From a virus, in the IMG/VR virus record IMGVR_UViG_3300046780_000444, positions 1 to 50,319 of that record: a stretch of DNA of 50,319 bases; one strand, 5' to 3'. The notes beneath the pieces were generated by a model. It made no database searches. It was not told the DNA's origin and saw only the letters and a program-made list of their open reading frames with translations. Below are positions 1,063 through 50,319 of this stretch, piece by piece. Position numbers and translations under genes: made by a program. Numbering within the stretch: the first letter of the stretch is position 1; each line of letters begins with the position of its first letter.

Positions 1063-1262
1063 AGCTTCATGTGGCGGCGGATCATCGCGGTTGACCGACG
1101 ATTGCGCGTGCATCGAAATTCGATGCGCCCGCGCTTCACCCGGAAATCGAAATTATGGACGAGGCCGCAGTCGCAGCACGCCATCTTATAGCCGCGACGG
1201 ATTGGCCGCACCCAACGCGACCACCCATCATCGCCCGCAACCTCCTTTATAAAACCAGTCAC
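1035..1262 (-). CDS. Small zinc-ribbon phage protein
   Basis: A 75-residue protein if the GTG at 1262 is used. It carries DDGWSRWVRPIRRGYKMACC followed by DCGLVHNFDFRV and, further on, FRCTRNRRSTAMIRRHM. The GYKMACCDCGLVHNFDF signature is a widely found small phage protein with a Cys-rich, ribbon-like core; its function is not established. A longer frame back to 1346 is possible, but it runs through a separate small gene, and AGGAG lies suitably upstream of the GTG at 1262. The last ten residues are encoded by the terminator stem and differ completely from those of the right-hand copy. Confidence 0.75.
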   Translation of the reverse strand: MTGFIKEVAGDDGWSRWVRPIRRGYKMACCDCGLVHNFDFRVKRGRIEFRCTRNRRSTAMIRRHMKLKGAPARRG

Positions 1263-1288
1263 GGCGTTCCCTTGCTCCTTCTGCCATG

Positions 1289-10308: not shown

Positions 10309-10674
10309 ATGGTCTCGGTGTTTGACCCGGTTGCCGCGAAAGCCGCGCGTGATGATGCGATGTATCGTGTCGATCGCGCGGCGTCCGCTGCATGGAAAGC
10401 TTATGTCACCGAGCTGATTGTCGAGATCGCCAGGACCATGACCGAGTTCACGACGGACGATGTCGAGATGCTGCGTCTTCGTCGTCGCGGGCCTTCAACG
10501 CACGAGCCGCGCGCGTTGGGCCCGTTGATGCGCGCCGCGGCAAGAGCAGGGGTCTGCGCGCCCACCGGCATTGTTCGCGCGTCCGTTCAGGTCAGCAATC
10601 ATAACAGGCCCATGCAAGTCTGGCGCAGCCTGATCTATCGCAAGCCGAGTACGCCCGACGATTATCCCTTCTGA
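10309..10674 (+). CDS. Conserved phage protein beside polymerase
   Basis: A 121-residue protein starting MVSVFDPVAAKAARDDAMYR, with TTDDVEMLRLRRRGPSTHEPRALGPLM (residues about 51-77), ARAGVCAPTGIVRAS and an ending LIYRKPSTPDDYPF. The pattern TxDDVxxL...PREPRALGxxMRxAAxxG...VWRSLxY is recurrent in phages of several hosts near replication genes and looks like a small winged-helix-like DNA-binding fold. The family has no assigned function that I can name. It shares one base with the polymerase start (TGATG). Confidence 0.75.
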   Translation: MVSVFDPVAAKAARDDAMYRVDRAASAAWKAYVTELIVEIARTMTEFTTDDVEMLRLRRRGPSTHEPRALGPLMRAAARAGVCAPTGIVRASVQVSNHNRPMQVWRSLIYRKPSTPDDYPF

Positions 10675-12581
10675 TGCGGCTGGTCCTCGATCTTGAGACC
10701 ACGTCGACCGCGGATCTGCGCAAGACCGGCAGCCACGCTTATGCCGAGCATCCCGACACCAGGATCACGGTGCTTTGCTTCGCGATCGATGACGGCTTCG
10801 TCGAGACCTGGCTCTCGGGACCGCCGCCGCTGAAGTTTCTCTTGGCGTTGTCGGCAGACGCAACGATCGTCGCGCATAACTACCTTTTCGAGTTCAACCT
10901 TTATCACGCGAAGCTGGTCCCGCAGGGCTGGCCCGCGATCCCCTTGTCCCGCTGGTCCTGCACGATGGCCCGGGCGATGGTCGCGGGCTGGCCCGCCTCG
11001 TTGGAGCTGGCAGGCCGCGCGCTGGGGCTCAGCCATCAGAAGGATCCCACCGCGCGGGACCTGATGCTGCGCTTTGCCCGGCCGCGCAGCCACAGCCCGC
11101 TAACGTGGTGGCACGAGACCGATCCCGTGCGCTTCAAGGCGCTGCAGGATTACTGCGCGCAAGACGTCGAGACCGAGCGCGCCCTCGATCGCCGCGTCCC
11201 GGAGCTATCGCCGCGCGAGCGGGCGGTATTCGAGCTGGATCACCAGATTAATCAGCGCGGCCTGGGCATCGATCACGCGCTCGTCAACCAGCTGGCGGCG
11301 TTGACCGCTATCGCGCAGCATGATCTGACCCGTGAGATCATCCGGCTGACCAGCGGGCAAGTATGCTCGCTGAACCAGGTCGAGAAGCTGCGCCACTGGC
11401 TCAAATTCCAGGGCGTCGACATCCTGGATTTGCGCCGCGGCACGGTGCAGAAGCTGCTCGCCAATCAAGCCCTCGTGGGAGCGCCGCGCAAGGCGCTGCA
11501 GGCGCGTCTCGATGCGTCCCGCTCGTCGACCGCCAAGCTCGCCGCGATCACCGGCGCGCGGTCTCTGGACGGCCGGTTGCGCGGGACGTTCCAGTATTAC
11601 GGCGCGCAAAGGACCGGCCGCTGGGCCGGGCGTCGGCTGCAGCCGCAGAATTTGTTTAGGGGGTCGATCAAGGACGTGAACGGCGCGCTTGCCGTGATCG
11701 AGGCCGGGGCTGGTCCCGGGGACCTGGATCTCATGTTCGAGGATAGCGCTTTGGGCGTCGTCGCGAGCTGCTTGCGCTCGACCATCATTGCCCGGGCAGG
11801 CTGCATGCTGCCGATCGCGGATTTCTCGCAGATCGAGGCGCGGGTCCTGGCGTGGCTGGCGGGGCAGCGCGATGCGCTCGATGTCTTTGCCCGCGGCGAG
11901 GATATCTACACGGCGACCGCCAAGGCCGTCGGCTCATCCAGCCGCCAGCTCGGCAAGGTGCTGGTCCTGGCCTGCGGCTTCGGCATGGGACCGGACCGCT
12001 TCATGCAGACCGCGCTGAGCTATGGCATCGTCCTCGATGTGGTTGAGGCCATCAACGCCGTGATGGCGTGGCGCGAGGTCAACGATCATATCGTGACGTT
12101 CTGGTGGGAAGCGCATCGGGCCTTGATGCGTGTGATGCGGGCAGGCCCGGGCGCGCAAGAACGGGTCGGTTTTTGTGCCATTATTCACCGGCAGGGCATG
12201 ATCCTGGTCCGGCTCCCCAGCGGGCGGCACCTGATCTATCGGCACCCGCGGATCGAGACCAACGATCAGGGCTTTGCCGAGTTCACTTATCTCGGCAGCT
12301 TGGGCGGCGGCTGGACCCGGCTGCGGGCATGGCCCGGCAAGCTCGCCGAAAATATCACCCAGGCTGTGGCGCGCGATGTCATGGTCGAAGCGATGCTGCG
12401 TCTGGCCGGCGTGCCGCTCATCGCCACGATCCACGATGAGCTGATCGCTGAGGTTCCCGCGGCCGCCGCCGATGCGACCCTCGATCGCATGCTGGGAGCG
12501 ATGCGCGCGCCCCCGCCTTGGGCGCTGGGCCTGCCGGTCAACGCCGCGGGCTTCATCGTTCGGCGCTATCAGAAAGGGTAA
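10674..12581 (+). CDS. Family A DNA polymerase with 3'-5' exonuclease
   Basis: A 635-residue replicative polymerase. The exonuclease domain (about 1-180) has ExoI VLDLETTS (D6, E8), ExoII VAHNYLFEFN, in which Glu replaces the usual Asp, and ExoIII YCAQDVETE (Y160, D164). The polymerase domain has motif A IADFSQIEARVLAWLAG (D383), motif B QLGKVLVLACGFGMG (K428) and motif C TIHDELIAEV (H587, D588, E589). There is no 5' nuclease domain. The ExoII Glu matches a variant common in phage enzymes. It should copy the genome together with the primase-helicase encoded at 47361-49739 and the SSB. Confidence 0.95.
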   Translation: MRLVLDLETTSTADLRKTGSHAYAEHPDTRITVLCFAIDDGFVETWLSGPPPLKFLLALSADATIVAHNYLFEFNLYHAKLVPQGWPAIPLSRWSCTMARAMVAGWPASLELAGRALGLSHQKDPTARDLMLRFARPRSHSPLTWWHETDPVRFKALQDYCAQDVETERALDRRVPELSPRERAVFELDHQINQRGLGIDHALVNQLAALTAIAQHDLTREIIRLTSGQVCSLNQVEKLRHWLKFQGVDILDLRRGTVQKLLANQALVGAPRKALQARLDASRSSTAKLAAITGARSLDGRLRGTFQYYGAQRTGRWAGRRLQPQNLFRGSIKDVNGALAVIEAGAGPGDLDLMFEDSALGVVASCLRSTIIARAGCMLPIADFSQIEARVLAWLAGQRDALDVFARGEDIYTATAKAVGSSSRQLGKVLVLACGFGMGPDRFMQTALSYGIVLDVVEAINAVMAWREVNDHIVTFWWEAHRALMRVMRAGPGAQERVGFCAIIHRQGMILVRLPSGRHLIYRHPRIETNDQGFAEFTYLGSLGGGWTRLRAWPGKLAENITQAVARDVMVEAMLRLAGVPLIATIHDELIAEVPAAAADATLDRMLGAMRAPPPWALGLPVNAAGFIVRRYQKG

Positions 12582-12586: not shown

Positions 12587-13099
12587 ATGCTGGCGGCGCA
12601 TCGTTTCGACAACGCCAAAAGGCGGCGGCCGGACGCTCACGCGCGTCAAGCCATGCTGACACCCGATTACGTTTTGGAGCCGGTTAGAACGCTACTCGAC
12701 GGCATAGGGCTTGACCCGTGTACCGAGCCGGACAACCCGTGCCACGCGGATCGGTTTTACTGCCTTCCTCAAGATGGCGCAGCGCTGCCGTGGGATGCGC
12801 TTACGGTGTTCTGCAATCCGCCTTACGGAGAAGCGCGCAACCGCTGGGTCGAGCGCTGCATCGTGGAGGGCGCGCGACGTAAAGTCGTCTTGCTCATGCC
12901 TGCGCACACCGAGACTAAAATATTTCAACGAGGGATGGGCGCTTGCTGCGATCTGGTTTTCGTAAACGCTCGGCTCCGGTTCGGGGTGTTACGCGAAAAT
13001 CGGAGGCAAGAGGCGGCGAGCCACGGCTCTGCTATTTTCGGCTTTGGCGTGAGCGTTGAGCTGATTGGATTTCTAGGAACACTGGTGCGAAGGGCTTGA
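12587..13099 (+). CDS. Phage DNA N6-adenine methyltransferase (Dam-like)
   Basis: A 170-residue protein from the ATG at 12587, five bases after the polymerase. It has LTPDYVLEPVRTLL, GLDPCTEP (the DPC element), LPWDALTVFCNPPYGEARNR with the catalytic NPPY at 77-80, and a final strand pattern LLMPAHTETKIFQRGM. This is the phage Dam family (PF05869 type). It would methylate adenines in phage DNA, probably to evade restriction or time packaging. It is last in the early operon. Confidence 0.88.
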   Translation: MLAAHRFDNAKRRRPDAHARQAMLTPDYVLEPVRTLLDGIGLDPCTEPDNPCHADRFYCLPQDGAALPWDALTVFCNPPYGEARNRWVERCIVEGARRKVVLLMPAHTETKIFQRGMGACCDLVFVNARLRFGVLRENRRQEAASHGSAIFGFGVSVELIGFLGTLVRRA

Positions 13100-13215
13100 G
13101 TTGTGCGGGGCTTTGTCTTCCGGGACAAAGCTGAACAAGCCCGGCTTTCAAGGGGCCTGAGCGCGAGACCTTTCCCTTATCGAATAAAAAGCCCTGTGGC
13201 GCAGCTATAACCGCC

Positions 13216-13249
13216 ATTTGAACACCCGTTTGCACAGCGATTTGCACAC
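13216..13249 (+). repeat. Three direct repeats at 12-nt phase
   Basis: ATTTGAACAC (13216), GTTTGCACAG (13228) and ATTTGCACAC (13240) start exactly 12 nt apart and share the core RTTTGMACAS. AGTTGCACAC at 13361 and ATTTGAACAC at 13561 are further copies. The even spacing resembles iterons or a cooperative operator array. Position between convergent operons gives no obvious promoter to regulate. Confidence 0.55.
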
Positions 13250-13541
13250 TGGTTTTTCGCGGGCGACAACGCTGCTTTTTCCACCTTTCCCCCTTCGTGG
13301 GAATAGTCTCCCTTATCGAAAAAAGCGGCATTCACGCAAGACAAAGTGTAAAACTGTGCGAGTTGCACACCGATCTGCGCAACAACGGCCTACAATGTCT
13401 CGCTAAAAACAGGATAAAATGAGCTAAGCTATTGAGATTGCTTGTGTCTCTTGTTGTTTGTCGTGTCCCTAGCCATGGGAAAGGTCAACATTACAATCCT
13501 TCCAAATATCGCTGCTATAACAAAGGCTTAGCGTTTTGTTG

Positions 13542-13682: not shown

Positions 13683-16600
13683 CTAGTGGTGCTGCGGATG
13701 CTCCGGCGCGGGCTGGTCGACGAAGGGCGCGCGGGCTTGCGCCGCCTTGTGGACACCATAGCCGAGCCCGGCGGCGACGCCGAGCGCTTTGACCGGCCAG
13801 GGCAAGCCCGACGCGTAACGCGCGACCGGCGCCGCGCCATAGCGCGCGGCCGGGACGGCGATGTCGTCGGCGATGCCCCAGCCAAAGCCAGCGCCGCCGG
13901 GGCCGACGCCGGGACCGCTGCCGTCGCGGCCGCCGGAGCCGGTATCGGCGTTCTCTTTCGCCATCTCGTCGAGCGATTTGAGCCCCGCGGTCTTGCGCTC
14001 GTCGTCGAGCGATTTGAGCCCGCCCTCGCCGGTATCGGGGGGCGCTGCCTTGGTCCCTTTGGGGCCGCCCGCCAGGTACGTAGCCGCGACGTTCGCGGCG
14101 TGCGGCGAGGTCCCGAGCTGCAGCGCTGCCCCGGCGGCGACGCGCGTGATGGGGCCGCCGACGGTGCCGAGCGCGGTCAGCCCATAAGCGGCGAGCGGCA
14201 CGCCGATCAGGTTGAAGGCGCCGCGCCACGCATTGTAGAGCCGCGTATTGGTGTCGGTCTCGGGACCAATGAAGCCCTGCACGATGGCATTCATGTTCGA
14301 CAGCGCCCAGGTCAACGAAGGACCGTTGATCAGCGAGGCGATATCGGCGTTGTAGCGAAGATGGGTAGCGACCTGGACCAGCGGATCGAGGGGCCCGTTG
14401 AGACCCGAACGCCCAAACCCAAGGTTGAGCAGATAGCTGGGAAGATCGCCGTCTTCGAGATGCTGCTTGACCTGGTCCGGGGCAAAGAGCAGCTGCCGCA
14501 CGGTCGACGCCATGACGTTCGCGCCGACGATGGCCCCCACCGCCATCCCGGTGTGGATGCTGGTCCCGGCGGCGCCGAACGCGCCGCGGCCCAGCGCGCC
14601 GATCGTGCCGCGGCCGGCGTCGAGCGCCTCTTGCTGCGAGCGCCCGAAATCGTGCTTGATGCGCTCCATCGTCGGCATCAGCACGTTGCGGTTGAACTGG
14701 TAATTAAACGACATCAGCTGGAACATGAGGCCGATGATCGGTCTCGACGCGCCGATCGCGCGGTCGACCTTGTAAGGATCCTGGATCGAGCGGTCGACCA
14801 GCCGCCGGATCGCCAGCCCATAGGTGCTGCGCATCGGATCGTTCTCGATGGCGCGCGCATTGGGAGCGGTGTCGTGCTGCAGGAGCCAGTCGGCAAACTC
14901 GGGATGGCCGCCGCCCGCGACGCCCAGCTCGTTGAACCAGCGCGCCGCGTCCTCGCGCGCGTGCTTGGCATGGGTGCTGATCTCGGTGCTGGTGTAGTCC
15001 CGCGCCAGCTTGGTCAGGAACCAGTGATTGGCCCCCATGCTCGCGACGCGCTGCGCGTTGGTCAGCCAGGTCAGGCCCGAGACCCGATAGTATTTCGTCA
15101 TGAAGCGCTGGATGTTGGGGCTGTCGCTGTAATCGGCGCCCATGCGCGACAGCATCACGCTGTCATGCATCGGCGTCGTGATCACGTTGAGGAATTGCGC
15201 CAGCTCGGTGCGCTCGCGCGCCGATGCGCTTCTCGTCAGCGCCTCCATCTGAAGGGCGAAAGACTTGAAGCCGGTGCGCATGTCGCCGGTGGCGAGCGCC
15301 GCATTCATCGGCTCGGCCCATGACGCCCACATCGCGCGCGGCATCAGCGCGATCGAGCCGAGCGCGTGCGCGATCTGGTGCAGCGATTGCAGCTGGCTGC
15401 TGCCGCGCTCCTGATTGCGCCCCATGACGTTGTTCGCCATCTCGCGAAAGAGATTGGCGTCGGCATCGCTCACGCCCTCGGCTTTCGCCATTCTGAGCTG
15501 CTGTTCGAGCAGCTTGCCGTCGGCGCCGAACAGATTGGCTTGCGCGACGCGGCGCGCGACGCCGTCGAAATAATGCGGCAGCGCCACGGCGGGGTCGGTC
15601 CACATCCAGTCGCGCATGATGCGATCGGCTTCCGGCGGGAGAACGCGCGCGTTGAGGAAGCGACCGGAAGGGCCGCTCTTGTCGAAGCTGGTCGGCTCGC
15701 CCGACGTCATCCGGTTGCGCCAGTCATCGGCGTTCAGCTCGGCAAGATGCTCGCTCAGCTTGGGATGCAGCGTTGTCGCGAGATCGGTGGCATCGCGCTG
15801 CAGCTGCTTTAGCTCGGCCTGCTCGACGGGTGTCCTGGGACCACCGGCAGCCTCGATCTCGCGTTGACGCGCGAGGTTCCTGCCGAGCGCGGCGAAGGGG
15901 GCGCGCAGCTGAGCACCGCCCGTCAGGCGCTTGTCCTCGGCCTTGACGCCGTTGCTCCACTTCTCGAACAGCGCTTCGGGATTGCTGCCCGCTGGTCCCA
16001 GCTCCTGGTCGAACATGAGCTGGTGTAGTTCCTTGGCCGATGCGTGAAACCCATTGCCGTCGGCCATGATCTTCGCGAGGTCGTAGACCCGCGGGAAATA
16101 GCCGCTTTTGGCGAAGCCGATATCGAGCCCGGCCTTGCGCGACATCGCCCAGGCTTCGTTGAGCAGGTCGCGCATGTTGCCCGCGGCGGCGAGGATATTG
16201 CCCGGGATCGGCTTGGTCCCGGCGGCCGGGTTGTTGGGATCGATCGGAAAGTCCGGCGTGCCGACGGTCAGCACATGATGCAGCATCTGGCTTTCCTCGA
16301 TGCTCATCTTGCCGGGGACGAGACCGCTCGCTTGCATGATGTTGCCCATGCGGCGCGTGAACTCGCGCCCGACATTGCGGACCCGTTCCTCGAAATTCTC
16401 GACGGTGTAGCGGCCCTCGCCGGGTGCTGAGGCCAGGCTATCGAGGATGCTCTGCAGGTAGGCTCTGGCCTTCTCGGGCGAGCGCTCGATGATCGCCTTC
16501 ATGAAGCCGTGCGATGAGCCCATATGCGCGCGGAACACCTTGTCCTGGATGCGGGTGACGAGGCTCTGGGGGTTCTTCGGCCGGGTCTTGTCCCGCGGGT

Positions 16601-19600
16601 CCAGCTCCTTCAAGACGCGGCTCTGGAAATCGATCGCGCGCGCGATGCCTCTGCCCACCGGCGTCTTCATCGCGTTGGGCGCGGTCACGGGCCAGTGATG
16701 CTTATCGGACTTGCCGTAATCGGTCCAATCACCGGGCGGCTTGCCGTTGTTAAAGATCTGCTCGTTGGCGATCGCCTCGTTGAGGTCGTCCAGCGCCTTG
16801 AAGATCTGCGCGCGGTCGTCCTCTTTGGGGTAGATCATCTTGAGGATCTTGACGTTTTCTTCGAGGTAGGCCGCATTCGGCATGACGATGCCGCGGGGGT
16901 CTTGTCCCGCCTGCTCCATCTTTTCCGACATATGCGCCTCGCCCGCGCGCGCCATCATCTCGTGCGCGCTGGCGAAGTAGCGCACCCCTTTGGGCCGCGG
17001 GTCGTAGCTCGCGCTCTGCTCGCGGTACTTGCTGAGCTGGATCGGCAGCTTGGTGCCGCCCTTGTCGAGCAATTCCAGCTCGCGCTGCGCGTCCCGGGCG
17101 GCTTTGGTCGGGTTGCCCTTGGCGTCGATCTCTTGCGCCTTGTTCTCCAAGCCGAGCCGCGCCGCGACCAGGGCGGGCTTGTCGAAGAACATCGTGTTGA
17201 TGAGCCGCGCGAACGCGCCTTCGACCGGATCCTTCGGCCGCAGCTCGCCGCCGCGCGCGTATTGCGTCAAGAGCCGGTTCATGACGCTGGGGTTGCCGGT
17301 CAGCCGCTCCGACAGCGCGTGGTCCCGCGCATGGATCCACTCGTGACCGAAGCTGTTGGCTCCGGCCATGACCTCGATCTCGCCGCTGCGCCGCCCCAGC
17401 CGATAGAGCCCGTAATAGGGCCGCTTGCCTTGCGGGACCAAGGTCAGCGACAGCTTGCCGTTGAGGCTGGCCTGCTCCGGCGGCAGGTTGAGCGCCTTCA
17501 TGCCGTCGTGCATGGCCCGCACCATGTCGAGCATCGCTTGCTGCGCGATATGCCGGTCGACTGGCGACGGGTTATCCGAGCCTTCCTTCCCGCCTTCAAG
17601 GCGCACGTCCTTGAAGCCGAATTTGTCCTTCAGGTGCTGCAGGATGATGTTGTTCTGGCGCTCGATCGGCAGGCTCGCCGCCGTGTCGGGATCGATGGGC
17701 TTGCCGGTCTTCTTGTCGGTTACGTCTTTGAAGATCGAGCGCCAGACGCTGGTCCCGTCGTTGAAATGGTAATCGTCCGTGGTCCGCGCGCGGTTGACCG
17801 GGAGCGGCCCGATGAACGGCTCCTTGATGCCGCCCTGACGCTCGCCCTTGCCGGGGGTCATGCCGCGCATCCGCCCGATCTGGGCGCTGACCTTGGTGAG
17901 CTTGTTCTGTAGCTGGACCAGCTCCGCGGGCTTGCCGCGCGCCTGATCGAGTTTTGCCGTCAGCGCATCGCGGGTGGCCGTGAGCTTGGAAAGCTGAGCT
18001 TGCGCCTCTTTGGTGCCGCCGAGCGGCGCGGCCGCGATATCGGGGTGGGGCTCCGGCGCGTTGGGATCGCCGTAGAGCGCGTGCTGCCGGTTCGCCTCTG
18101 CAGCTGAGTGCTCGGCTGCGAGGTCGCTCTGCAGCTTTGCCTGCTGATCCTTGAAGCCCTGGATCGTGTCGCGGTGCGCGAGCAGCTTTGCGGATGGCTT
18201 GATCGCTTGGTTCTTGCGCGCGGCCATCTTCCGCTCGACCGCTTCGGCTTTGGCGATCTTCTCGTTGATCTGATCGAGCTGCGCCTGCCGGATGGCGACG
18301 CGGCCCCCGGTGCGCTGCTGGATCGCGTCGCGCTGCTGGTGGAGATCCTGCATCTCCCGGGTCTGCTCGGGCGTGCGGTCTTGGCCGAGCGCTTCGAGCT
18401 TATCGAGGCGCGCGCCGATGCTCTCGGGGTGAGGATTGGTCCCGTCGTATTTGGGACCAGGCTCAGCGCCGGGACCAGGCTCAGCGCCGGGACCAGCGCC
18501 GGGACCAGGCTCAGCGCTGGGACCAGCTTCTCGACCAGGCGGGACCACTTCAGCGCCTGGTCCCAGCTCATGGTCCCCTTTAGCGGGCTCCTTAGGGTGT
18601 TCATCCGTGCCAATTGCCACGGGCTTCGTGCCAATTGCCTCGGGGCCAGGGGCCGTAATTGGCTCGGATTTCGGCCCCTCGGCATTACGCCGGTTAAGGC
18701 GTTCTTCGGCAAGGGCGCGCGCCTGCTCCGGGGTATCCCCGACCGCCACCACATGCCCTTGCTCGTTCTTGGCGACGTATTGGCCTGGGACTTCGTGATC
18801 GGCCTCGATCTTCAGCGCCTCGGAGCGGATCGCGGGACCTTTGGGGGCGGGACCTTCGGTAGCCCCTACGCGGGGGGCGGCTCCTTCGGCTGGCGCAGAA
18901 GCGCCCTTAGCTCCTTGATCTCCGCGCGCGCCATCTCCCTGATCTCCGGGGCTGACACCGCGTCCGAGTTCCGGCCGCTGAACTCCTTCAGCAGGCGCCG
19001 CGCCTGGCGCAGCCTCTGGACCGGGTCGTCCGGGAGCGGTACGAGTGAGGTCATCGGCGGGCGTTCTAGCCCCTTCAGATGGAGGTGTCGATGGTGCACG
19101 AGGTTCAGCCCCTGGGACCCCTGCTGTTTCACGGGGAGCGCCTGCTGGGGGCGTTGGCGGAAGCTCCCCTGTCGGCATGGGACGCCCCGGTGCTTGGGGC
19201 TCTGGCGGCGGTGCTGGTGTCGCTCCGGCAGGCTCTATACTCGGAGACGTTTCCGACGGCCGGGGGACCGCGCTGGGCTCGGCCGTCACTGGCGCAGGTG
19301 TCGCGGGCGCAGCTTCTCCTGCACCGGCTGGCGGGGCACCTTCGGCGCTGGCTGGACGAGGCTCCGGCTGATCCGGCTGCGGCGCAGCAGCGCCAGGAAC
19401 GGCAATCGCGATGGGCACTGGCATCGTCTCAGGTCGAGGCGCTGGCGGTGCAGCCGCTGGCGGGGCTTCGATCGGCGGTGCCGCAGTCCCGGGCATAACC
19501 CGCTCCTGCGGGAGCGGTGGACTGCCGAACTGGCTCGGCTGCGGGCTGTTGATGTCCATGCCTTGCGGGGAGCCCGGAAGCGGCAACCGCTCAGGTCCGG

Positions 19601-20630
19601 TCGTGGTCAGGCCGCTGGCGCCGGGCGCCTTGATCGCGGCTTCTCTTTCCACGTCAGCGGGTGACTGGAACTTGCCGGGCGGGGCAAAGGGCGCGGGCTC
19701 GCGCTTGAGGGCGCCATGCGCCCCGGCAAAGCCAGCGCCGGTGATGGCGCTTTGCGAAGCTTGCTCCAAGACATCCCCCAGCGAGGGCGGCTTCTCGCCC
19801 AGCGCCAGGGGCACGCCGACCTGCGTGGCCGCGCCCGAGACGGCCTGCGCGCCCGCCTGAAAGAGCATTTTGCTGATGATGTTCTTGAGCGGAATGCCGA
19901 TCCAGGGCGCGGCCTCGAACAAGGGCGCCGTCGCCGCGACGATCGCGCTGGTGGCCGCGGCGTGCTTCCAGGCGTAAGCGACGGCGTCGTCGTGGCTCAG
20001 TCCTTGAGCGCTCGCCTGCAGGAAGGCGGGCTTCAAATCGTAGGCCAGGGACGTCAAGCCCATGCCACCGGCGCCGCCTATGGCGGCACCGATGGGCCCA
20101 CCCACCGCAAAGCCCGCGCCCGCGCCGCCTAAGCCAGCCGCCAGCATCGGGCCCGAGCCGCCGATGCCCTGGCCGAGCTGGTGCATATAGCTCTGCTCGG
20201 GCTCCGGCTGCGCGCCTGGGGCTGGCGGCGTAAAGATATTCCCCGTCGCGATGTTCTTGGTCTCTTGCACGCTTCCGGTGAAGCCGGAGCCGACCCCGCT
20301 GAAGAAGCCGGTCTCTTTGGACGGCGCCGCCGCGGGGTCGGTGCTCTGGTCCTGACTTGCTGGCGCAGACGCAGGCGCTTTTAGGATGGCATAGCCATTG
20401 GCGTCGACCAGGGGGACTGAAGCAGGCGCATCTGCAAGCGCGACAGACGACGTTGATGCAGGCGCAGGCGCGGGCGCAGGCGTCGCTTTTAGGATGGCAT
20501 AACCATTGGCGTCGACCAGGGGGACTGAAGCCGCCGCAGGCGTTGGCGCAGGCGCAGGCGCAGGCGCAGGCGTTTTTAGGATGGCATAGCCGTTGGCATC
20601 GATGAGAGGCACACCGCCGCTATCGGGCAT
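13683..20630 (-). CDS. Giant virion/ejection protein with zincin motif (2,315 aa)
   Basis: The start is the ATG at 20630, five bases past the transglycosylase stop; the open frame further upstream is an antisense-like extension over that gene. The N-terminus has three VPLxDANGYAILK units in Pro/Ala linkers, then a Gly/Ala-rich hydrophobic region (GSGPMLAAGLGGAGAGFAVG). A very long Pro/Ala/Gly/Glu low-complexity stretch and a charged helical region follow. HEWIHARDH at 1096-1104 has the HExxH zinc-protease signature. The rest is long helical sequence with motifs such as SGYFPRVYD and FNYQFNRNVLMPTMERIKHD. Size, place at the end of the late operon and the membrane-active N-terminus suggest an internal protein injected with the DNA, comparable to T7 gp16 or other polyvalent proteins. 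The C-terminus is Gly/Ser-rich. Confidence 0.85.
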   Translation of the reverse strand: MPDSGGVPLIDANGYAILKTPAPAPAPAPTPAAASVPLVDANGYAILKATPAPAPAPASTSSVALADAPASVPLVDANGYAILKAPASAPASQDQSTDPAAAPSKETGFFSGVGSGFTGSVQETKNIATGNIFTPPAPGAQPEPEQSYMHQLGQGIGGSGPMLAAGLGGAGAGFAVGGPIGAAIGGAGGMGLTSLAYDLKPAFLQASAQGLSHDDAVAYAWKHAAATSAIVAATAPLFEAAPWIGIPLKNIISKMLFQAGAQAVSGAATQVGVPLALGEKPPSLGDVLEQASQSAITGAGFAGAHGALKREPAPFAPPGKFQSPADVEREAAIKAPGASGLTTTGPERLPLPGSPQGMDINSPQPSQFGSPPLPQERVMPGTAAPPIEAPPAAAPPAPRPETMPVPIAIAVPGAAAPQPDQPEPRPASAEGAPPAGAGEAAPATPAPVTAEPSAVPRPSETSPSIEPAGATPAPPPEPQAPGRPMPTGELPPTPPAGAPRETAGVPGAEPRAPSTPPSEGARTPADDLTRTAPGRPGPEAAPGAAPAEGVQRPELGRGVSPGDQGDGARGDQGAKGASAPAEGAAPRVGATEGPAPKGPAIRSEALKIEADHEVPGQYVAKNEQGHVVAVGDTPEQARALAEERLNRRNAEGPKSEPITAPGPEAIGTKPVAIGTDEHPKEPAKGDHELGPGAEVVPPGREAGPSAEPGPGAGPGAEPGPGAEPGPKYDGTNPHPESIGARLDKLEALGQDRTPEQTREMQDLHQQRDAIQQRTGGRVAIRQAQLDQINEKIAKAEAVERKMAARKNQAIKPSAKLLAHRDTIQGFKDQQAKLQSDLAAEHSAAEANRQHALYGDPNAPEPHPDIAAAPLGGTKEAQAQLSKLTATRDALTAKLDQARGKPAELVQLQNKLTKVSAQIGRMRGMTPGKGERQGGIKEPFIGPLPVNRARTTDDYHFNDGTSVWRSIFKDVTDKKTGKPIDPDTAASLPIERQNNIILQHLKDKFGFKDVRLEGGKEGSDNPSPVDRHIAQQAMLDMVRAMHDGMKALNLPPEQASLNGKLSLTLVPQGKRPYYGLYRLGRRSGEIEVMAGANSFGHEWIHARDHALSERLTGNPSVMNRLLTQYARGGELRPKDPVEGAFARLINTMFFDKPALVAARLGLENKAQEIDAKGNPTKAARDAQRELELLDKGGTKLPIQLSKYREQSASYDPRPKGVRYFASAHEMMARAGEAHMSEKMEQAGQDPRGIVMPNAAYLEENVKILKMIYPKEDDRAQIFKALDDLNEAIANEQIFNNGKPPGDWTDYGKSDKHHWPVTAPNAMKTPVGRGIARAIDFQSRVLKELDPRDKTRPKNPQSLVTRIQDKVFRAHMGSSHGFMKAIIERSPEKARAYLQSILDSLASAPGEGRYTVENFEERVRNVGREFTRRMGNIMQASGLVPGKMSIEESQMLHHVLTVGTPDFPIDPNNPAAGTKPIPGNILAAAGNMRDLLNEAWAMSRKAGLDIGFAKSGYFPRVYDLAKIMADGNGFHASAKELHQLMFDQELGPAGSNPEALFEKWSNGVKAEDKRLTGGAQLRAPFAALGRNLARQREIEAAGGPRTPVEQAELKQLQRDATDLATTLHPKLSEHLAELNADDWRNRMTSGEPTSFDKSGPSGRFLNARVLPPEADRIMRDWMWTDPAVALPHYFDGVARRVAQANLFGADGKLLEQQLRMAKAEGVSDADANLFREMANNVMGRNQERGSSQLQSLHQIAHALGSIALMPRAMWASWAEPMNAALATGDMRTGFKSFALQMEALTRSASARERTELAQFLNVITTPMHDSVMLSRMGADYSDSPNIQRFMTKYYRVSGLTWLTNAQRVASMGANHWFLTKLARDYTSTEISTHAKHAREDAARWFNELGVAGGGHPEFADWLLQHDTAPNARAIENDPMRSTYGLAIRRLVDRSIQDPYKVDRAIGASRPIIGLMFQLMSFNYQFNRNVLMPTMERIKHDFGRSQQEALDAGRGTIGALGRGAFGAAGTSIHTGMAVGAIVGANVMASTVRQLLFAPDQVKQHLEDGDLPSYLLNLGFGRSGLNGPLDPLVQVATHLRYNADIASLINGPSLTWALSNMNAIVQGFIGPETDTNTRLYNAWRGAFNLIGVPLAAYGLTALGTVGGPITRVAAGAALQLGTSPHAANVAATYLAGGPKGTKAAPPDTGEGGLKSLDDERKTAGLKSLDEMAKENADTGSGGRDGSGPGVGPGGAGFGWGIADDIAVPAARYGAAPVARYASGLPWPVKALGVAAGLGYGVHKAAQARAPFVDQPAPEHPQHH

Positions 20631-20635
20631 GGATC

Positions 20636-21199
20636 TCAGCCCCCCAGCCGCCGGGCCAGCATGAGCTGCGCCCCCGGCATCAGCGGCACGCGCATAGGCG
20701 TGGCGGGCCCAGGCTCGGGAATGGCCTGGGACAAGGCGCCCATGCCGGGCGGGCTCCACGCGCTCTCTCGCATCGCGGCGAAGGCTCGTGGATCCATGCT
20801 TGGCGCGGCAAGGGCGGCCGGAGTTGCAGCGGGCGGCTGCGGAATTGAGACCGGGGCGTCTTGGGTCGCTCCCGATAGCGCTGGTCCGGGACCAGTCTGC
20901 TGCCCTTGGTTGCCCGATAGATACGCCGACAACCTTGGATTGCAGCCGGGGCAAGTCCAGTCGCCGAGCCCTCGCTTCGATACCGCTTGGGCAAAGACCT
21001 GGTCCTGGACCTCGGGCGGCGCCGATGCCGCCGTCGGATACTGCCCGGTATCGACGCCGATTTGCGAGGCGTACTGCCGCCAGGTCGGCGTGATGAACTG
21101 ATACGCGCCCGACGCCGACGTATTCGGGTTCTGCGCGCCGTAATCGCCGCCGCTCTCGAAGCGCTTAACGACGGCGGCCATGTCGGCGACGGAAGCCAT
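20636..21199 (-). CDS. Virion-associated lytic transglycosylase
   Basis: A 187-residue protein starting MASVADMAAVVKRFESGGDY, with Glu15 in FESGGDYGA as the likely catalytic acid, then SASGAYQFITPTWRQYASQIG and QAVSKRGLGDWTCPG. This is the lysozyme-like/SLT fold of virion peptidoglycan hydrolases. The second half is a Pro/Ala-rich tail. It probably opens the cell wall locally during DNA ejection and is adjacent to the giant protein, much as the lytic domain is part of gp16 in T7. It is also the only muralytic enzyme I can recognise in the window. It shares a base with the preceding gene's stop. Confidence 0.85.
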   Translation of the reverse strand: MASVADMAAVVKRFESGGDYGAQNPNTSASGAYQFITPTWRQYASQIGVDTGQYPTAASAPPEVQDQVFAQAVSKRGLGDWTCPGCNPRLSAYLSGNQGQQTGPGPALSGATQDAPVSIPQPPAATPAALAAPSMDPRAFAAMRESAWSPPGMGALSQAIPEPGPATPMRVPLMPGAQLMLARRLGG

Positions 21200-44701: not shown

Positions 44702-46552
44702 ATGCCGCGCTACATCGAAGTAACTGCAGCCGCGCGTGAGACAGCCACCAAGCTGCTCGCGTTGCGCAGCGCCAATGCGCACAAGGTTGCCATCACGACG
44801 CGCGGCGGAAAAACCGCCTCCGTTGATTGGTCCAGCAACCATGCGACTATCAACATGCCGAGCCTTCCGCCCGACGCGTCATTGACGCGTGCAGAAGCGG
44901 ATCGCTTGGTGGCTTTCATCGCGCATGAATGCTGCCACGTCCTGCACTCGGATCGAAGCCAGTGGCAGCGCGCATGCGCTGCAGGCGCACGCGTGCAAGC
45001 TTGGACCAACGCACTGGAAGATGTGCGGATCGAAGCACGCGAAATCAAAGCCGGGAACTTTCCAGCTTTGCGCACCGTGCTTTCAAGCATGGCCAACCAC
45101 CTGCACTATGAAGCCATGACAGCGGCCGCAACGCATGGCCGCATCATTGGCGCAAGCGTTGCGGATGCCCCTTATGTCGCATGCATCCTGGGGCGCGTTG
45201 CCAATGGCTATGCGATACCCGCAAGCGAGAACCTTGCTGCAAGCTTGAGCCCGCAAACCCGCAAGCTTGTTGACCATGCGCTGGCACGCATCGGCCGTTG
45301 CAAGAACACTTCGGACGTTGTGGAGCTTGCGCTTGAACTTGTCGCGATGGAGCAAGCGCTGCAGCCGCAAGGCAAGCCCAACGCTCAGGGCGATGACAGC
45401 GCTCGGGGCAAGGGCGATGATGCGAGCAAGCCCGATGCAAGCAAGGGCGATGACAGCGCTCAGGGCGATGACAGCGCTCAGGGCGATGACAGCGCTCAGG
45501 GCGATGACAGCGCTCAGGGCGACGAGGCTCAGGGCGACGAGGCTCAGGGCGACGAGGCTCAGGGCGACGAGGCTCAGGGCGATACCAGGCCCGGAGATGG
45601 TTCCGGCAATGAGATTGCTTCGGACGTCGATCTTACGGACGCAATCGATGCAATCGCCAAGCGCGCGGGCATTGCCGATCTAAACGAGCACAACGTGACT
45701 GATAAAAGCTATCTCCTGCCAACCCTCGCCACCAAGGTCACGCAAGCATGGCAAGGGCATGCCAACGGCAATAGAGGCAGCGCAGACATGCTCGCCGAGC
45801 GCATGCCGCGCAATTCGGTCCTGCATGGTCAAATCGCGCGCTTGCTTGTCACCGACGAGCAACGCCGTGTCACGCACCATGAAAGCAGCGGCAGGCTCGA
45901 TCGGCGCGCGCTTGCCCGCATGCGGACTGGTGCGACCGATGTCTATTCGCGCCGCTCCGACACGCCCGGGATCGATACCGCGCTGTTGATCCTCATCGAT
46001 GCATCCTCATCGATGCGGCTTTCGACGCCGAGCGGCCATACCCGCATGCAACTTGCCCAGACCACCGCATGGCACATTGGCCGCGCGGCGGAAAGCGCCA
46101 ATGCCAAGCTTGGCATTGCCAGCTTTCATTGGCGCGATGGTGTCACGGGGTCATCCTACACGGAGCTTGAAATGGTGAAGCCCTGGACCATGCCGATGGC
46201 CGCATGCGCTACGACCATTGCCGATATCGGCCCGGGCGGCCAAACCCCGCTTTCGCCTGCCATTGTCGAAGCAGCCAACATGCTCGCCGGGATCGATGCC
46301 TCGCGCCGTATCATCATGGTCCTGACCGATGGCGACTGCGATCTCGGCCCTGCGACCGTGACAGCCGCTTGTCGCTTGGCCGCAGCGCGAGGCGTCGAAA
46401 CCGTCGGTATCGGTCTTAACGCCCCGCGCGTCATTGCCGCTTTCCCCCCGCAGTACAGCGTCAACGTGGATGACCTAGCCCAACTATCGGCCAAGGGCTT
46501 AGGCGTTCTCGCCGACATGCTGGAGGACGCCAACCCTGTCGCAGCGGAATAG
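44702..46552 (+). CDS. CobT-like VWA protein with zincin motif
   Basis: A 616-residue protein starting MPRYIEVTAAARETATKLLA. The N-terminal part has FIAHECCHVLHSD (H75, E76, H79: HExxH), with NALEDVRIEARE downstream as a plausible third-ligand helix. An acidic linker follows, built from four GDDSAQ and four GDEAQ repeats. The C-terminal VWA domain has the MIDAS motif LIDASSSMRLS (D433, S435, S437), TPLSPAIVEAANM for the Thr position, and LTDGDCD. It lies four bases after the AAA gene: a classical MoxR-VWA pair. Zinc protease activity is unproven. Confidence 0.9.
   Translation: MPRYIEVTAAARETATKLLALRSANAHKVAITTRGGKTASVDWSSNHATINMPSLPPDASLTRAEADRLVAFIAHECCHVLHSDRSQWQRACAAGARVQAWTNALEDVRIEAREIKAGNFPALRTVLSSMANHLHYEAMTAAATHGRIIGASVADAPYVACILGRVANGYAIPASENLAASLSPQTRKLVDHALARIGRCKNTSDVVELALELVAMEQALQPQGKPNAQGDDSARGKGDDASKPDASKGDDSAQGDDSAQGDDSAQGDDSAQGDEAQGDEAQGDEAQGDEAQGDTRPGDGSGNEIASDVDLTDAIDAIAKRAGIADLNEHNVTDKSYLLPTLATKVTQAWQGHANGNRGSADMLAERMPRNSVLHGQIARLLVTDEQRRVTHHESSGRLDRRALARMRTGATDVYSRRSDTPGIDTALLILIDASSSMRLSTPSGHTRMQLAQTTAWHIGRAAESANAKLGIASFHWRDGVTGSSYTELEMVKPWTMPMAACATTIADIGPGGQTPLSPAIVEAANMLAGIDASRRIIMVLTDGDCDLGPATVTAACRLAAARGVETVGIGLNAPRVIAAFPPQYSVNVDDLAQLSAKGLGVLADMLEDANPVAAE
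45445..45576 (+). repeat. Four 18-nt plus four 15-nt tandem repeats in the VWA gene
   Basis: GGGCGATGACAGCGCTCA is repeated four times (45445-45516), followed by four copies of GGGCGACGAGGCTCA (45517-45576). The second unit looks like a shortened form of the first. They encode the acidic GDDSAQ/GDEAQ linker. The DNA copies are identical, so they probably expand and contract readily. Confidence 0.9.
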
Positions 46553-46675
46553 GGAAGCTTGCCTAGCGCCAAGCGGCCGCGCCCCGTCCCCCGACAGGGT
46601 TCCGCCGCTTGGCGCTCAGCAAGCTTCCCTTGTCCCCTTGAGGGACACCCTCTGGCGCTCCTGAAAGCATCCCCA

Positions 46676-46864
46676 ATGGCAAACCCTCTTAACCGCGTGC
46701 ACCTTGCCCGCTCAGCGCTTGGCATGACTGCCTGCGGCCGGATCGCGCGCGGGCTCATCCATCGCTTGCGCTGGAGCGATGCCCCTGCAACGCCTCGCCA
46801 TGCGCGCTGCAGGCATTGCCTACGCGCGATCCTCGCGCGGCCGCGATCCCGTCCTCGCCTCTAG
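46676..46864 (+). CDS. Small zinc-finger-like protein (62 aa)
   Basis: A 62-residue protein starting MANPLNRVHLARSALGMTAC, then GRIARGLIHRLRWSDAPATP and RHARCRHCLRAILARPRSRP. The pattern VHLA...(T)xCGR...W....xxxxCRxCLR is that of short His/Cys3 zinc proteins common in phages and plasmids. It is the third gene of the AAA-VWA operon, 120 nt after the VWA gene. The stop codon is at the start of the iteron array. No clear Shine-Dalgarno, which lowers confidence in the exact start. Confidence 0.6.
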   Translation: MANPLNRVHLARSALGMTACGRIARGLIHRLRWSDAPATPRHARCRHCLRAILARPRSRPRL

Positions 46865-46964
46865 GCTCCGATCGCGCCTGGGCTCCGATCGCGCCTGGGC
46901 TCCGATCGCGCCTGGGCTCCGATCGCGCCTGGGCTCCGATCGCGCCTGGGCTCCGATCGCGCCT
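46863..46964 (+). repeat. Six 17-nt iterons
   Basis: The unit GGGCTCCGATCGCGCCT occurs six times head to tail without a break; only the first base of the first copy differs (A). Each contains the palindrome CGATCG. Equal length, direct orientation and closeness to the primase-helicase gene resemble initiator-binding iterons of plasmid or phage origins. The array begins on the stop codon of the zinc-finger gene. Confidence 0.85.
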
Positions 46965-46979
46965 GCCGGGCGGCCGGAA

Positions 46980-47022
46980 CACCGCATAACGCCGGTTCCT
47001 CGGACACCGCATAACGCCGGTC
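46980..47022 (+). repeat. Two copies of CACCGCATAACGCCGGT
   Basis: CACCGCATAACGCCGGT occurs near 46980-46996 and 47005-47021, 25 nt apart. A related copy, CACCGCATAACGGCGG, lies at about 49910-49925 in the primase leader. The unit is not palindromic overall. It could be a binding site for a phage regulator or initiator, since all copies lie around the primase region. Confidence 0.6.
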
Positions 47023-47184
47023 TCACGCACCGCGGCGCTTTTGCCCCGCCTTTCGCGTCTTTGCTTTCAGCCTTCTAGCCGCACGATTAAGCGGCATATT
47101 TTCCGGCGCTCGCCTGAGTTCCGGATCACCATCGAACTCTGCCCGGAACGACAGATGACGATAACGATTTTGTTTCTTGGTCAT
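47023..47184 (-). CDS. Small basic protein beside the origin-like region (53 aa)
   Basis: A 53-codon frame with ATG at 47184 and GGAGG about 10 nt upstream. It starts MTKKQNRYRHLSFRAEFDGD, then PELRRAPENMPLNRAARRLK, and ends in a strongly basic KAGQKRRGA tail. The high Lys/Arg content fits a nucleic-acid-binding protein. It lies between the iterons and the large palindrome. It may be an initiator accessory or autoregulator of that site, inferred from place and charge only. The stop follows the CACCGCATAACG repeats. Confidence 0.65.
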   Translation of the reverse strand: MTKKQNRYRHLSFRAEFDGDPELRRAPENMPLNRAARRLKAKTRKAGQKRRGA

Positions 47185-47209
47185 GACGAGTTGCCCTCCC
47201 AGCTACTCT

Positions 47210-47334
47210 AGTGACGACCGTGACTTCTTTTCCCGTTCCCCCCTATACATTTCTAAACAGTGTATAGCATATATATATTTACACTGTTTAGTATTGCTAG
47301 GAGCCGAACCGGAAAAGAAGTCACGGTCGTCACT
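47210..47334. promoter_or_regulatory. 125-bp two-tier palindrome with AT-rich centre
   Basis: Outer arms of 24 bp (47210-47233 and 47311-47334) are perfect reverse complements. Inner arms of 12 bp, CTAAACAGTGTA (47253-47264) and TACACTGTTTAG (47280-47291), are also perfect. Both pairs share one centre at 47272. The 15-nt core is TAGCATATATATATT. GTTC/GAAC (47235-47238 and 47306-47309) add four more pairs. It lies between the primase stop and the small basic gene, in the most AT-rich part of the window. Candidates are a replication origin with its unwinding element, an operator complex or a resolution site. Confidence 0.8.
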
Positions 47335-47360
47335 CAATGGCGGATTTCTGCCGTTTTCCT

Positions 47361-49739
47361 TCAGTCGTTAGTAAAGTCCACGCCAACATCTTGTTGTGAA
47401 AGAGCAACACCAGATAAGGCCCAACCACTATTTACGTGTACCTTTCGACAGCAAGGAAACGCTTCCAAAAATTTACGGCTGAAGTCTTGCTTAGTGAGAT
47501 CGGCATGTTCGCCCTGGTCATGGCACCACAATCTGTAATCTTCTAATGCTTTAAGCACGGGCATCTGCTTTCCCGGAGAGAATACGCACCGATCTTTGGC
47601 CCAAGCCTTGAGCGTATCCTGATCGTCGAGGTAGCTCTGCGTCGCTTGAACGGCTGCGTGCGGTATCAAAGCCGACAGCCCGCCCGCCGCCCGGCGCAAA
47701 AGCTCGCCCTCGATCATCCATTGGAGGATGCCCGGATACTCGGCGACGAGCCGGTCCTTGAGCGAGGTATCGGCTTGCGCGGGGACCTGCATGAACGGGA
47801 CCAGGACGATGCGCCGCCGCATCGCTTCGTCGACGTTGGTGAGCCGCGGCTGATTATTGCCGACGAACGTGACCTTGAATTGCGGCACGAACTCGAACGT
47901 GTTCTCCCGCATGAAGCGTCCCGTGATCTTGCCGTCTCGTCCCGTGAAGTCCTTGAGCCGCACGGCATTGAACGTCCGGCCCGCCTCGATCTCGGTCGCG
48001 GTCACAGCGCGCACGCCGGTCAGCCGGGCGATCTCCTCGGGATGAGCGTCATGCTTGCGGACCATGAACATATCCGCGGCCGTGCGCGCGCCGTAGTCGT
48101 TGAGGATGGCGCTGATCGTGTGCAGGAACGTGCCTTTGCCGTTGCCCCCGGGACCATAGATGAAGACGAACTTTTCTTCGGAGGTGTCGCCGCTGAGGTT
48201 GTAGCCCGACCACGCTTGGTTGAAGGCGATCATATCCAGATCGCCGCCGGTGCTGTCCCAGAGGAACTGGTCCCAGATCGGGGTTGGCATTGCTTTCGGC
48301 GTGACGAGCAGCTGCTTGGTGATGAGATGCTCGGGACCGGGCGGCATAATCGCGCCGCTGCGCAGATCGATTGCGCAGCCGGGTGCGCCCGCCAGCCACG
48401 GATTTTGGTCCCAGGCCCGGCCGTCGACCGCCAGGCGCTGATCGGCGCGCGCGGCCAGCTCGATCGCTTTGGCGACAGCGACTTTGCCCCAAGCGCGCAC
48501 TTGTCCCGGCGTCAGGTCCTGCAGCGATCCACGGAACTCCCGTGCCAGGTCTCGCGCCCAGTCGGCGGCATGCTGGGTTTCGTCCTGCCGCCAAAACTCG
48601 CCGGTCCACTGGAACCAGCGTCCGCGCGTATGATCGAAGCGCAGCCGACCCCTATGCCGGTCGGCAAACGCCAGGGCGAGACCGTCCTCGGTGGCCTCGT
48701 ATGCGCCCAGCGGGTTGACGTTATTGCTTTGTCCCGGGACGAGACCTGTGAGACCTGGGACCAGATACGAAGGGAATTCGTCGAACGCCAAGCTCGCCAA
48801 GCACTCCAAGCCGCCGCTGTCTTCGCGGACCACGCCGTCGGCCCATTCCCGGACGTCGGCGATATTGCGGTCCTGGCAATGCCCGTGGTGACATTTGAAG
48901 CGCTCGCGCACCGGCACATACGAGGCCGCTGTGCGCGGATCGGTATGCTCGCTCGCCCACGGGCACTCGACATCGAAGCCCCAGCCGAACGTCATGCTGC
49001 GGCCCAAGCCCAGGACCATGCCGCGGCCGCGAAAGATCTTGAGGATGAGATCGCTCTCGATGTCGGCCGGGTCCGGCATTGCCGCCACGCCGAGATCCAT
49101 GTGCGCGTTGACCGGGACCACGGCTGCGCCGAGCCGCGCCTCGATGTCGATCCAGTCGAGGTGCTGGATCCTCGTCCCGGGCTGCCAATGCACGAGCTTG
49201 ACCTTGAAAGGCGTGATCAGCTCGGCTTTGCCATTGCTCCCGACAGGAAGTCTCACCAGCGTCGTCGGCTTGACGAGGTTATCTCCGGCTCCGAGCGCGC
49301 GATATAAATCCCGCAGCAGGCCCAGGACCCAGGCGCGATCGCATAGCGGCTCGATGAACCAGCCCGCGTGATAATTCCCGGGACTGGTCTCGATCACGTA
49401 GTTTGGTCCCACGCCCAGCAGCTGCTCGACCTTCGCGGGATCGACCTTCACGCCGTAGTCGTCGATCACGATGGCATAGAGCGCATCAAAGCTCGCCCCG
49501 GTCCTGCCGCCCGCAGCGCTCGGAAGACTTACGTCGTAATAGTTGTTGAGCCCGGCATGCATAACGCCGAGCACGGTTGCGGCGGGGTAGCTTTGCCAGT
49601 TGCGCGCGGTCTTGGGATCGCCCTGGAAGTAGCTCACCAGGACCTCGCCCCAGCGGGGACCAAAGATCGCTTTGAGGAACTGCTCGTTGGTGATCGGGAA
49701 GGGCACGACATGCGTGCCCGGACCCCACGGTAACGCCAT
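47361..49739 (-). CDS. Primase-helicase, D5/P4 type
   Basis: A 792-residue protein using the ATG at 49739, equivalent by alignment to the start of the left copy; the frame is open to 49832. The N-terminal part (about 1-250) is a RepB/prim-pol-like primase region: DALYAIVIDDYGVKVDPAKV, TSPGNYHAGWFIEPL and KPTTLVRLPVG. The C-terminal SF3 helicase has Walker A FIYGPGGNGKGTFL (about residue 530), LTGVRAVTATEIEAGRTFNA, KFKVTFVGNNQPRL-type motif C (FKVTFVGNNQPRL) and RRRIVLVPFMQ. Such enzymes open an origin and prime it, like P4 alpha or D5. The palindrome and iterons just downstream are likely targets. Confidence 0.93.
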   Translation of the reverse strand: MALPWGPGTHVVPFPITNEQFLKAIFGPRWGEVLVSYFQGDPKTARNWQSYPAATVLGVMHAGLNNYYDVSLPSAAGGRTGASFDALYAIVIDDYGVKVDPAKVEQLLGVGPNYVIETSPGNYHAGWFIEPLCDRAWVLGLLRDLYRALGAGDNLVKPTTLVRLPVGSNGKAELITPFKVKLVHWQPGTRIQHLDWIDIEARLGAAVVPVNAHMDLGVAAMPDPADIESDLILKIFRGRGMVLGLGRSMTFGWGFDVECPWASEHTDPRTAASYVPVRERFKCHHGHCQDRNIADVREWADGVVREDSGGLECLASLAFDEFPSYLVPGLTGLVPGQSNNVNPLGAYEATEDGLALAFADRHRGRLRFDHTRGRWFQWTGEFWRQDETQHAADWARDLAREFRGSLQDLTPGQVRAWGKVAVAKAIELAARADQRLAVDGRAWDQNPWLAGAPGCAIDLRSGAIMPPGPEHLITKQLLVTPKAMPTPIWDQFLWDSTGGDLDMIAFNQAWSGYNLSGDTSEEKFVFIYGPGGNGKGTFLHTISAILNDYGARTAADMFMVRKHDAHPEEIARLTGVRAVTATEIEAGRTFNAVRLKDFTGRDGKITGRFMRENTFEFVPQFKVTFVGNNQPRLTNVDEAMRRRIVLVPFMQVPAQADTSLKDRLVAEYPGILQWMIEGELLRRAAGGLSALIPHAAVQATQSYLDDQDTLKAWAKDRCVFSPGKQMPVLKALEDYRLWCHDQGEHADLTKQDFSRKFLEAFPCCRKVHVNSGWALSGVALSQQDVGVDFTND

Positions 49740-50123
49740 AGGTTTTTGCCTCGGAAAGCAGGAGGGAAGGGGCTTCGAGAAAGCTTGTGTCGCGTCGGCC
49801 GCGCTTTGTTGTGAGCCCAAAGCGCGAGACAAAATCTTGCGCCTGCGACAGCGCCCTAAGCAAGCAAGATTTATGGCACTACCATGGCAAAGCCGCGAAA
49901 CTCAGGGGCGCACCGCATAACGGCGGGCCCAGGCGGCGTCCCCTGTGAAGGACCCTCCGGGGAGACTTGTATCCGCCCCCAGGATCGATCATATTCAACC
50001 TCGGCACTGGCCGCCTCTAGGCGGCGAGTTCCTTCTTCGCGGCGGGGTGGTGCCCGCCCGCGCGGTGACAGGTTTTTGCGGTTTGTGTCGCAGCAACGCA
50101 AAGAGAGAAAGGCGTCGGCTCCC
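49740..50123. other. Leader between zinc-ribbon gene and primase (right copy)
   Basis: It is homologous to 700-1034, and I see no gene. Kept elements are TTTTTGCGGTTTGTGTCGCA (50073-50092), the hairpin at 50010-50025, the flank GAGTTCCTTCTTCGCGG, and the minus-strand motif GCCATAAATCTTGCTTGC around 49858-49875. An extra CACCGCATAACGGCGG copy (about 49910-49925) and net insertions totalling 40 nt make it differ from the left copy. Confidence 0.6.
50010..50025 (-). promoter_or_regulatory. Covarying hairpin in primase leader (right copy)
   Basis: GCCGCC (50010-50015) pairs with GGCGGC (50020-50025) over a TCTA loop. It replaces the CCGTCC/GGACGG stem found at 924-941 in the other copy, between the same flanking words. 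The change of sequence with retained pairing supports a real structural element. Confidence 0.5.
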
Positions 50124-50142
50124 TCAGGGCTGACGCCTTTTT
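50108..50142. terminator. Intrinsic terminator at the zinc-ribbon stop (right copy)
   Basis: AAAGGCGTC (50108-50116) pairs with GACGCCTTT (50132-50140), followed by TT on the plus strand and by CTCTCTTT on the minus strand. The minus-strand zinc-ribbon gene stops in its loop (50124-50126). Compared with 1027-1062, four stem positions differ and still pair. Confidence 0.7.
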
Positions 50143-50319
50143 CGTGCCATGTGGCGGCGGATCATCGCGGTCGACCGACGATTGCGCGTGCATCGAAATT
50201 CGATGCGCCCGTGCTTCACCCGGAAATCGAAATTATGGACGAGGCCGCAGTCGCAGCACGCCATCTTATAGCCGCGACGGATTGGCCGCACCCAACGCGA
50301 CCACCCATCATCGCCCGCA
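50124..50319 (-). CDS. Zinc-ribbon protein, partial (open at right edge)
   Basis: The frame enters from the right edge and codes for DDGWSRWVRPIRRGYKMACC, then DCGLVHNFDFRVKHGRIEFR, and ends RRHMARKRRQP. It is the same protein as that at 1035-1262 except for Arg to His once in the core and a wholly different C-terminal tail. The first residues lie beyond the window; if the genome is circular, they are those of the left copy. Confidence 0.8.
   Translation of the reverse strand, partial: AGDDGWSRWVRPIRRGYKMACCDCGLVHNFDFRVKHGRIEFRCTRNRRSTAMIRRHMARKRRQP

Follow-up and report, generated by a model that had tools for sequence, protein, structure and literature searches.

The 125-bp interrupted palindrome at positions 47210–47334 of the DNA analysed here is very probably a phage replication origin of the iteron type, read by the adjoining D5_N, P4-family primase-helicase. 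The window, by which we mean the whole 50,319-nt stretch, is an IMG/VR virus record with genes for an integrase, a DNA polymerase, an exonuclease, a terminase and a portal protein. An origin opened by the D5-type helicase had been the first option of a first-pass annotation of this DNA, and it is favoured by the conserved position of the palindrome, the covariation of its arms, the exchange of helicase and origin as a cassette, and the comparison with known origins. The functional units are probably 9–10-bp direct repeats within the arms, rather than the palindrome itself. The features concerned are as follows.

47210–47334, no strand: whole interrupted palindrome, the proposed replication origin, at a position common to 7/7 close relatives
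47210–47233, plus strand: primase-distal outer arm, with inverted copies of GTGACGACC (47211–47219) and GTGACTTCT (47220–47228)
47229–47238, plus strand: TTTCCCGTTC box, immediately inside the iterons; the opposite arm carries TTTCCGGTTC
47244–47303, no strand: AT-rich 60-mer (44/60 A+T), the proposed unwinding zone
47253–47264, plus strand: inner 12-bp arm CTAAACAGTGTA, exact
47280–47291, minus strand: second copy of the inner 12-bp arm, exact
47311–47334, minus strand: primase-proximal outer arm, with the minus-strand 9-bp units GTGACGACC (47333–47325) and GTGACTTCT (47324–47316)
47361–49832, minus strand: primase-helicase of 823 aa, with a primase-like N-terminal half, a D5_N/DUF5906 SF3-type helicase and a C-terminal helix-helix-hairpin domain
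47388–47615, minus strand: C-terminal domain of this protein (about residues 740–815), the proposed iteron reader, which diverges faster than the helicase core
47023–47184, minus strand: 53-aa open reading frame, starting 26 bp beyond the palindrome
47021–48777, minus strand: helicase-plus-origin cassette, exchanged as one unit in loci L005, L006 and L007

The 24-bp outer arms and the 12-bp inner arms are exact reverse complements and both pairs are centred on 47272.0, as the first-pass annotation had stated. It had described them as two nested palindromes whose shared dyad was beyond chance. Both pairs of arms are real, but they belong to a single ungapped structure, of which they form the well-paired ends; its arms of 55 nt show 82% complementarity around a loop of 15 nt, and 46 of 62 positions are paired. 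A shared centre is therefore to be expected and does not represent two independent events. The palindrome as a whole does stand above chance, its inverted-repeat score of 26 exceeding all 60 dinucleotide shuffles of the region (mean 7.6, maximum 13). It is also the strongest inverted repeat in the window, where the median score is 9 and the runner-up scores 21. This runner-up is a long hairpin (46543–46638) at the end of a CobT-like gene, and is conserved in L005 (6850–6923) and L007 (4590–4671).

The TTTCCCGTTC box is identical and in the same place in L010. The inner 12-bp palindrome has no further copy in the window and was rejected as a conserved element, being absent from the relatives; its role is outside what the origin model explains. 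An exact 24-mer search of viral contigs found no second copy of the outer arm, and neither a DNA-level search of phage records nor a first profile search of genome contigs with a narrow alignment gave a match.

The palindrome lies directly 3′ of the primase-helicase gene, with 26 bp between the stop codon and the arm, and the description of it as next to a primase is therefore accurate. The protein scores 220.6 bits against TIGR01613 (P4 family; cut-off 108.7) and 66.4 bits against D5_N (cut-off 22.4), and the RepB_primase model matches the N-terminal primase half in the relative L008. A structural model of the helicase half (pLDDT 87.5) matches the SaPI5 primase-helicase (7OLA; TM 0.65), and also ASFV PrimPol, which has been solved as a hexamer and a dodecamer, and poxvirus D5/E5. 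At the end of the modelled chain two helices are followed by a beta hairpin, an arrangement that may correspond to a winged helix. The AlphaFold model of the N-terminal primase half was unusable (pLDDT 43.6). The left end of the window (1–1282, minus strand), just downstream of the integrase, contains another copy of the N-terminal primase region, in truncated form; it is 98% identical to L007 and 78% identical, as protein, to the right-end copy (48778–50319), and could be read as a strain-mixed assembly, tandem prophages or two primases.

The palindrome was compared across about 70 related loci. The close relatives among these, with 56–75% primase/helicase identity, came from primase-anchored searches. 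Seven of them have a 3′ end that can be read (L003/L004, L008, L011, L012, L014, L015 and L027; 59–75% identical in the D5-type helicase domain and 56–67% in the primase), and every one of the seven carries an inverted repeat of its own sequence no more than about 30 nt from the stop codon of the primase. The arms are GGCTGAAGACCCTGAAGACC in L003/L004, AATGTAGGCCTATGTAGACC in L008, CAGTGCCGCACAGTGCCGG in L011, CGATGACGCATGATGAC in L012 and CAGGGACGCACAGGGACGC in L014/L015, while in L027 the palindrome is weak, with a 15-nt arm that overlaps the gene end. We had looked among these for relatives with an intact primase but no palindrome, the case that would count against an origin at this position, and each of them keeps one, L027 weakly. 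The arm of the window matches that of L003/L004 at only 15–16 of 24 positions, and each palindrome is nevertheless internally well paired. Since the repeats in the same place differ in sequence between relatives, the arms have been kept by compensatory change; the arm covariation that the first-pass annotation had proposed to seek is thus present. In L003/L004, L011 and L012 the N-terminal part of the primase (to about residue 209) and the helicase part are read in different frames, reflecting separate genes, a frameshift or a sequencing error.

Further away, L017 (38% identity) has three GTGACGCTG units per arm, and scattered repeats in both orientations, rather than one clean stem, are seen in L022, L033, L040, L041 and the Lactobacillus phage phi adh (L055). 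A stem-loop has reportedly been published for BIP-1, a near-identical sister of the BPP-1-type phage BMP-1; our scan of BMP-1 (L059) gave an inverted repeat at background level only.

In the relatives the arms are mostly tandem 9–10-bp repeats, with the two sets in inverted orientation on either side of a spacer that is AT-rich or alternates between purines and pyrimidines. The inverted repeat exceeds all 60 dinucleotide shuffles at 32 of 46 primase loci, and the number exceeding every other window of their own locus is likewise 32 of 46. Neither these loci nor the held-out loci below are phylogenetically independent, and separate events are therefore fewer than the counts suggest. A significant tandem direct repeat is present in the arm at 27 of 32 loci, with a period of 9 bp (17 loci), 10 bp (6), 8 bp (3) or 7 bp (1). 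The held-out set comprised 23 chromosomal (prophage) P4-family primases from 150 genomes of one order, drawn afterwards by the family model. Here the palindrome is beyond the shuffles in 16/23 and beyond the background windows in 17/23, and the direct-repeat period is significant in 14 of the 16 palindromes, being 9 bp in 13 of these 14. No such palindrome is found at 14 of the 46 sampled and 7 of the 23 held-out primases, and the rule is therefore not universal. The window's own arm has a period of 9 with p = 0.22 when taken alone, so that the claim of iterons rests on the relatives.

The centre of the palindrome lies in an AT-rich island, as had been noted at the outset: the 60-mer at 47244 is the most AT-rich of all 50,319 bp, with 44/60 A+T compared with 39/60 for the runner-up, and provides an easily unwound spacer between the two repeat sets. 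Within it is an alternating purine-pyrimidine tract, GCATATATATAT (47267–47278), which at 12 nt is not the longest in the window. In many GC-rich relatives the spacer contains a long tract of this kind, with alternating runs of 20–39 nt between the inverted iterons in L010 (39 nt), L027 (31 nt), L033, L022, L041, L011, L044, L012 and L045. Alternating runs of at least 18 nt number 11 in 16.9 kb of these regions, against a single one in the other 316.8 kb of the loci concerned, an enrichment of about 200-fold. These runs may act as unwinding elements, and they suggest a route by which GC-rich replicons could obtain such an element without AT-richness.

Helicase and repeats also change together. 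In L005, L006 and L007 the primase half aligns with that of the window at 79–91%, and all three alignments stop at 48777–48778; similarity resumes only past the palindrome, at 46632, 47020 and 46845. The replacement helicase half is of the DUF3987 type in L005 and VapE-like in L006 and L007, and is followed by repeats of its own, CCGGATA units that are weak as an inverted repeat in L005 and TCTAGTCCC units in L006/L007. Because similarity in the helicase half and in the origin is lost together in each case, we conclude that these two parts are replaced jointly while the primase half stays constant. Between near relatives it is the C-terminal domain that is conserved less well than the helicase core: L011 and L012, whose repeats differ, are 95% identical in the helicase core and 76% in the C-terminal domain. 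From these sequences, the faster divergence of the C-terminal domain fits a changing DNA reader, and could also represent relaxed constraint.

Several other features lie on the far side of the palindrome. The 53-aa open reading frame has no family match in domain searches. Six 17-bp tandem repeats (GGCGCGATCGGAGCCCA, minus strand) occupy 46860–46965, with two copies of GGCGTTATGCGGTG beside them (46978–47020), and both are conserved in L006 (6652–6806). Further on are convergent CobS/CobT-like genes. Elsewhere in the window a 2423-aa open reading frame (13683–20954, minus strand) encodes a large polyvalent protein with an LPD1 domain.

Initiation at the palindrome could proceed as follows. The C-terminal domain of the D5-type helicase would bind the 9-bp repeats GTGACGACC and GTGACTTCT in each arm and, the two repeat sets being inverted, two helicase hexamers would assemble face to face across the dyad. 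Once loaded, the hexamers would open the AT-rich spacer, and initial primers made by the primase fused to the helicase would start two forks; these primers could be extended by the DNA polymerase that the phage itself encodes (10674–12581). Cumulative GC skew, put forward in the first-pass annotation as a check on the origin, has its extremes at 2,999 and 42,273, away from the palindrome; it tracks gene strand, which confounds it, and was set aside as origin evidence.

Other readings of the palindrome have to be weighed against an iteron origin. It might act as a stem-loop, with a cruciform that extrudes and a helicase that recognises this structure, as proposed for pRN1, instead of the duplex repeats. 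Arms that covary while their sequence does not persist are consistent with this, as is the need for an intact stem-loop in pRN1 replication (PMC4234260). A hairpin, however, has no need of arms built from 9–10-bp direct repeats, the scattered repeats of L022, L033, L040, L041 and phi adh offer no single clean stem, and binding by Cch2 depends on direct, not inverted, repeats (PMC7581432); we regard a structure-reading origin as unlikely. A site for a regulator that controls either the replication operon or the 53-aa gene downstream is very unlikely. Dyad symmetry, the start of a small reading frame 26 bp downstream and an inner palindrome that could be a regulator site would all suit an operator, and a regulator complex was among the first-pass options, but the arms change along with the helicase domain and not with a shared regulator, the inner site has no second copy in the window, and in L008 and L004 the palindrome is followed by reading frames that do not, by eye, resemble the 53-aa frame.

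Its position directly after a stop codon, and the stable fold that its RNA would adopt (−75.6 kcal/mol), might point to a transcription terminator or an RNA processing hairpin that ends the primase transcript. We consider this highly improbable: neither strand has a run of T following the stem, no terminator is called there, and the direct repeats are left unexplained. Moreover, in L017 and P4 the primase stop is followed first by a separate terminator and only then by the repeats, the crr type 1 repeats of P4 standing beyond the terminator of alpha. No Rfam family reaches its gathering score; the search returned only miRNA models far below theirs, an artefact of the hairpin. Perfect inverted arms would also be expected of a protelomerase resolution site or of a mobile-element remnant with terminal inverted repeats, which we judge the least probable of these readings, with hardly any chance of being correct. 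The first-pass annotation had listed a telomere-like site and argued against it from the imperfect centre, and that argument holds, the centre not being palindromic. The genome encodes a tyrosine integrase instead, with no protelomerase among the subset of open reading frames scanned; in the relatives the element is internal and fixed behind the primase, and arms that covary at one fixed site would not be expected of a mobile element.

The favoured reading, an iteron-type origin of a P4-family primase-helicase, belongs to a kind already known from SaPI, P4 and pRN1, of which the palindrome is a new example. Annotated or experimentally supported origin elements occupy the same place in three comparators, the phi adh rep_origin, the P4 crr and the pRN1 stem-loop. 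Two proteins that belong to the D5_N kind or stand close to it, SaPI Rep and SCCmec Cch2, use their C-terminal domain to bind repeats immediately downstream of their own gene, and binding by Cch2 is abolished by deletion of the direct repeats and not by deletion of the inverted repeats (PMC7581432). The likeness to the window lies in the D5_N-type helicase, the repeats directly 3′ and the SaPI5 helicase fold, which matches our model; the Cch2 site differs in having direct repeats with a 5-nt core, and inverted repeats that are dispensable for binding.

In P4, the crr type 1 repeats are directly 3′ of the alpha primase-helicase gene, in both orientations and with a 9-bp tandem spacing. P4 differs in its TOPRIM-type primase, in having another site, rep_origin, some 4.5 kb off, and in its low similarity to the protein of the window (26% over 156 aa). 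Phage phi adh (AJ131519) has a homologous primase (E = 1e-46, aligned over 445 residues) and, directly 3′ of it, an annotated rep_origin (13084–13469 in the record) that begins at the end of ORF771. Its 10-bp repeats are inverted around an AT-rich core, but form several scattered pairs rather than one palindrome, and its host is AT-rich.

The Sulfolobus plasmid pRN1 has a palindrome of about 100 bp 3′ of its primase-SF3 helicase-winged helix protein, with 21-bp arms and a 58-nt loop, variable in sequence and conserved in pairing as in the relatives of the window; the window palindrome is of the same description. In contrast, pRN1 is an archaeal plasmid, and its helicase is only weakly similar to that of the window (25% over 162 aa). 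Replication of the plasmid depends on this stem-loop, which is situated downstream of orf904, has to be intact and works when moved (PMC4234260; Berkner et al. 2014). Its authors describe an origin that lacks iterons, and set it against iteron origins (PMC4234260); we find a 9-bp repeat in the stem-loop arms (p ∼0.03).

These comparisons bring us to a broader proposal, for and against which we see about equal chances: that a single code is common to P4-family origins, whether in phages, prophages or plasmids. In this code inverted 9-bp (sometimes 10-bp) iterons would lie 3′ of the gene, on either side of an unwinding tract, and GC-rich genomes would use for that tract an alternating purine-pyrimidine run, prone to form Z-DNA, instead of AT-richness or in addition to it. 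Helicase and origin would move together as a cassette while the primase in front of them stays constant, and the "stem-loop without iterons" of pRN1 would be another case of the same thing. For an uncultured phage group the present palindrome gives a specific, testable origin and initiator. The rule of inverted 9-bp repeats directly behind a P4-family primase would make it possible to predict origins in many phages, prophages and small plasmids by their sequence alone, and it connects three systems that are usually described apart, the SaPI iterons, the P4 crr and the pRN1 stem-loop.
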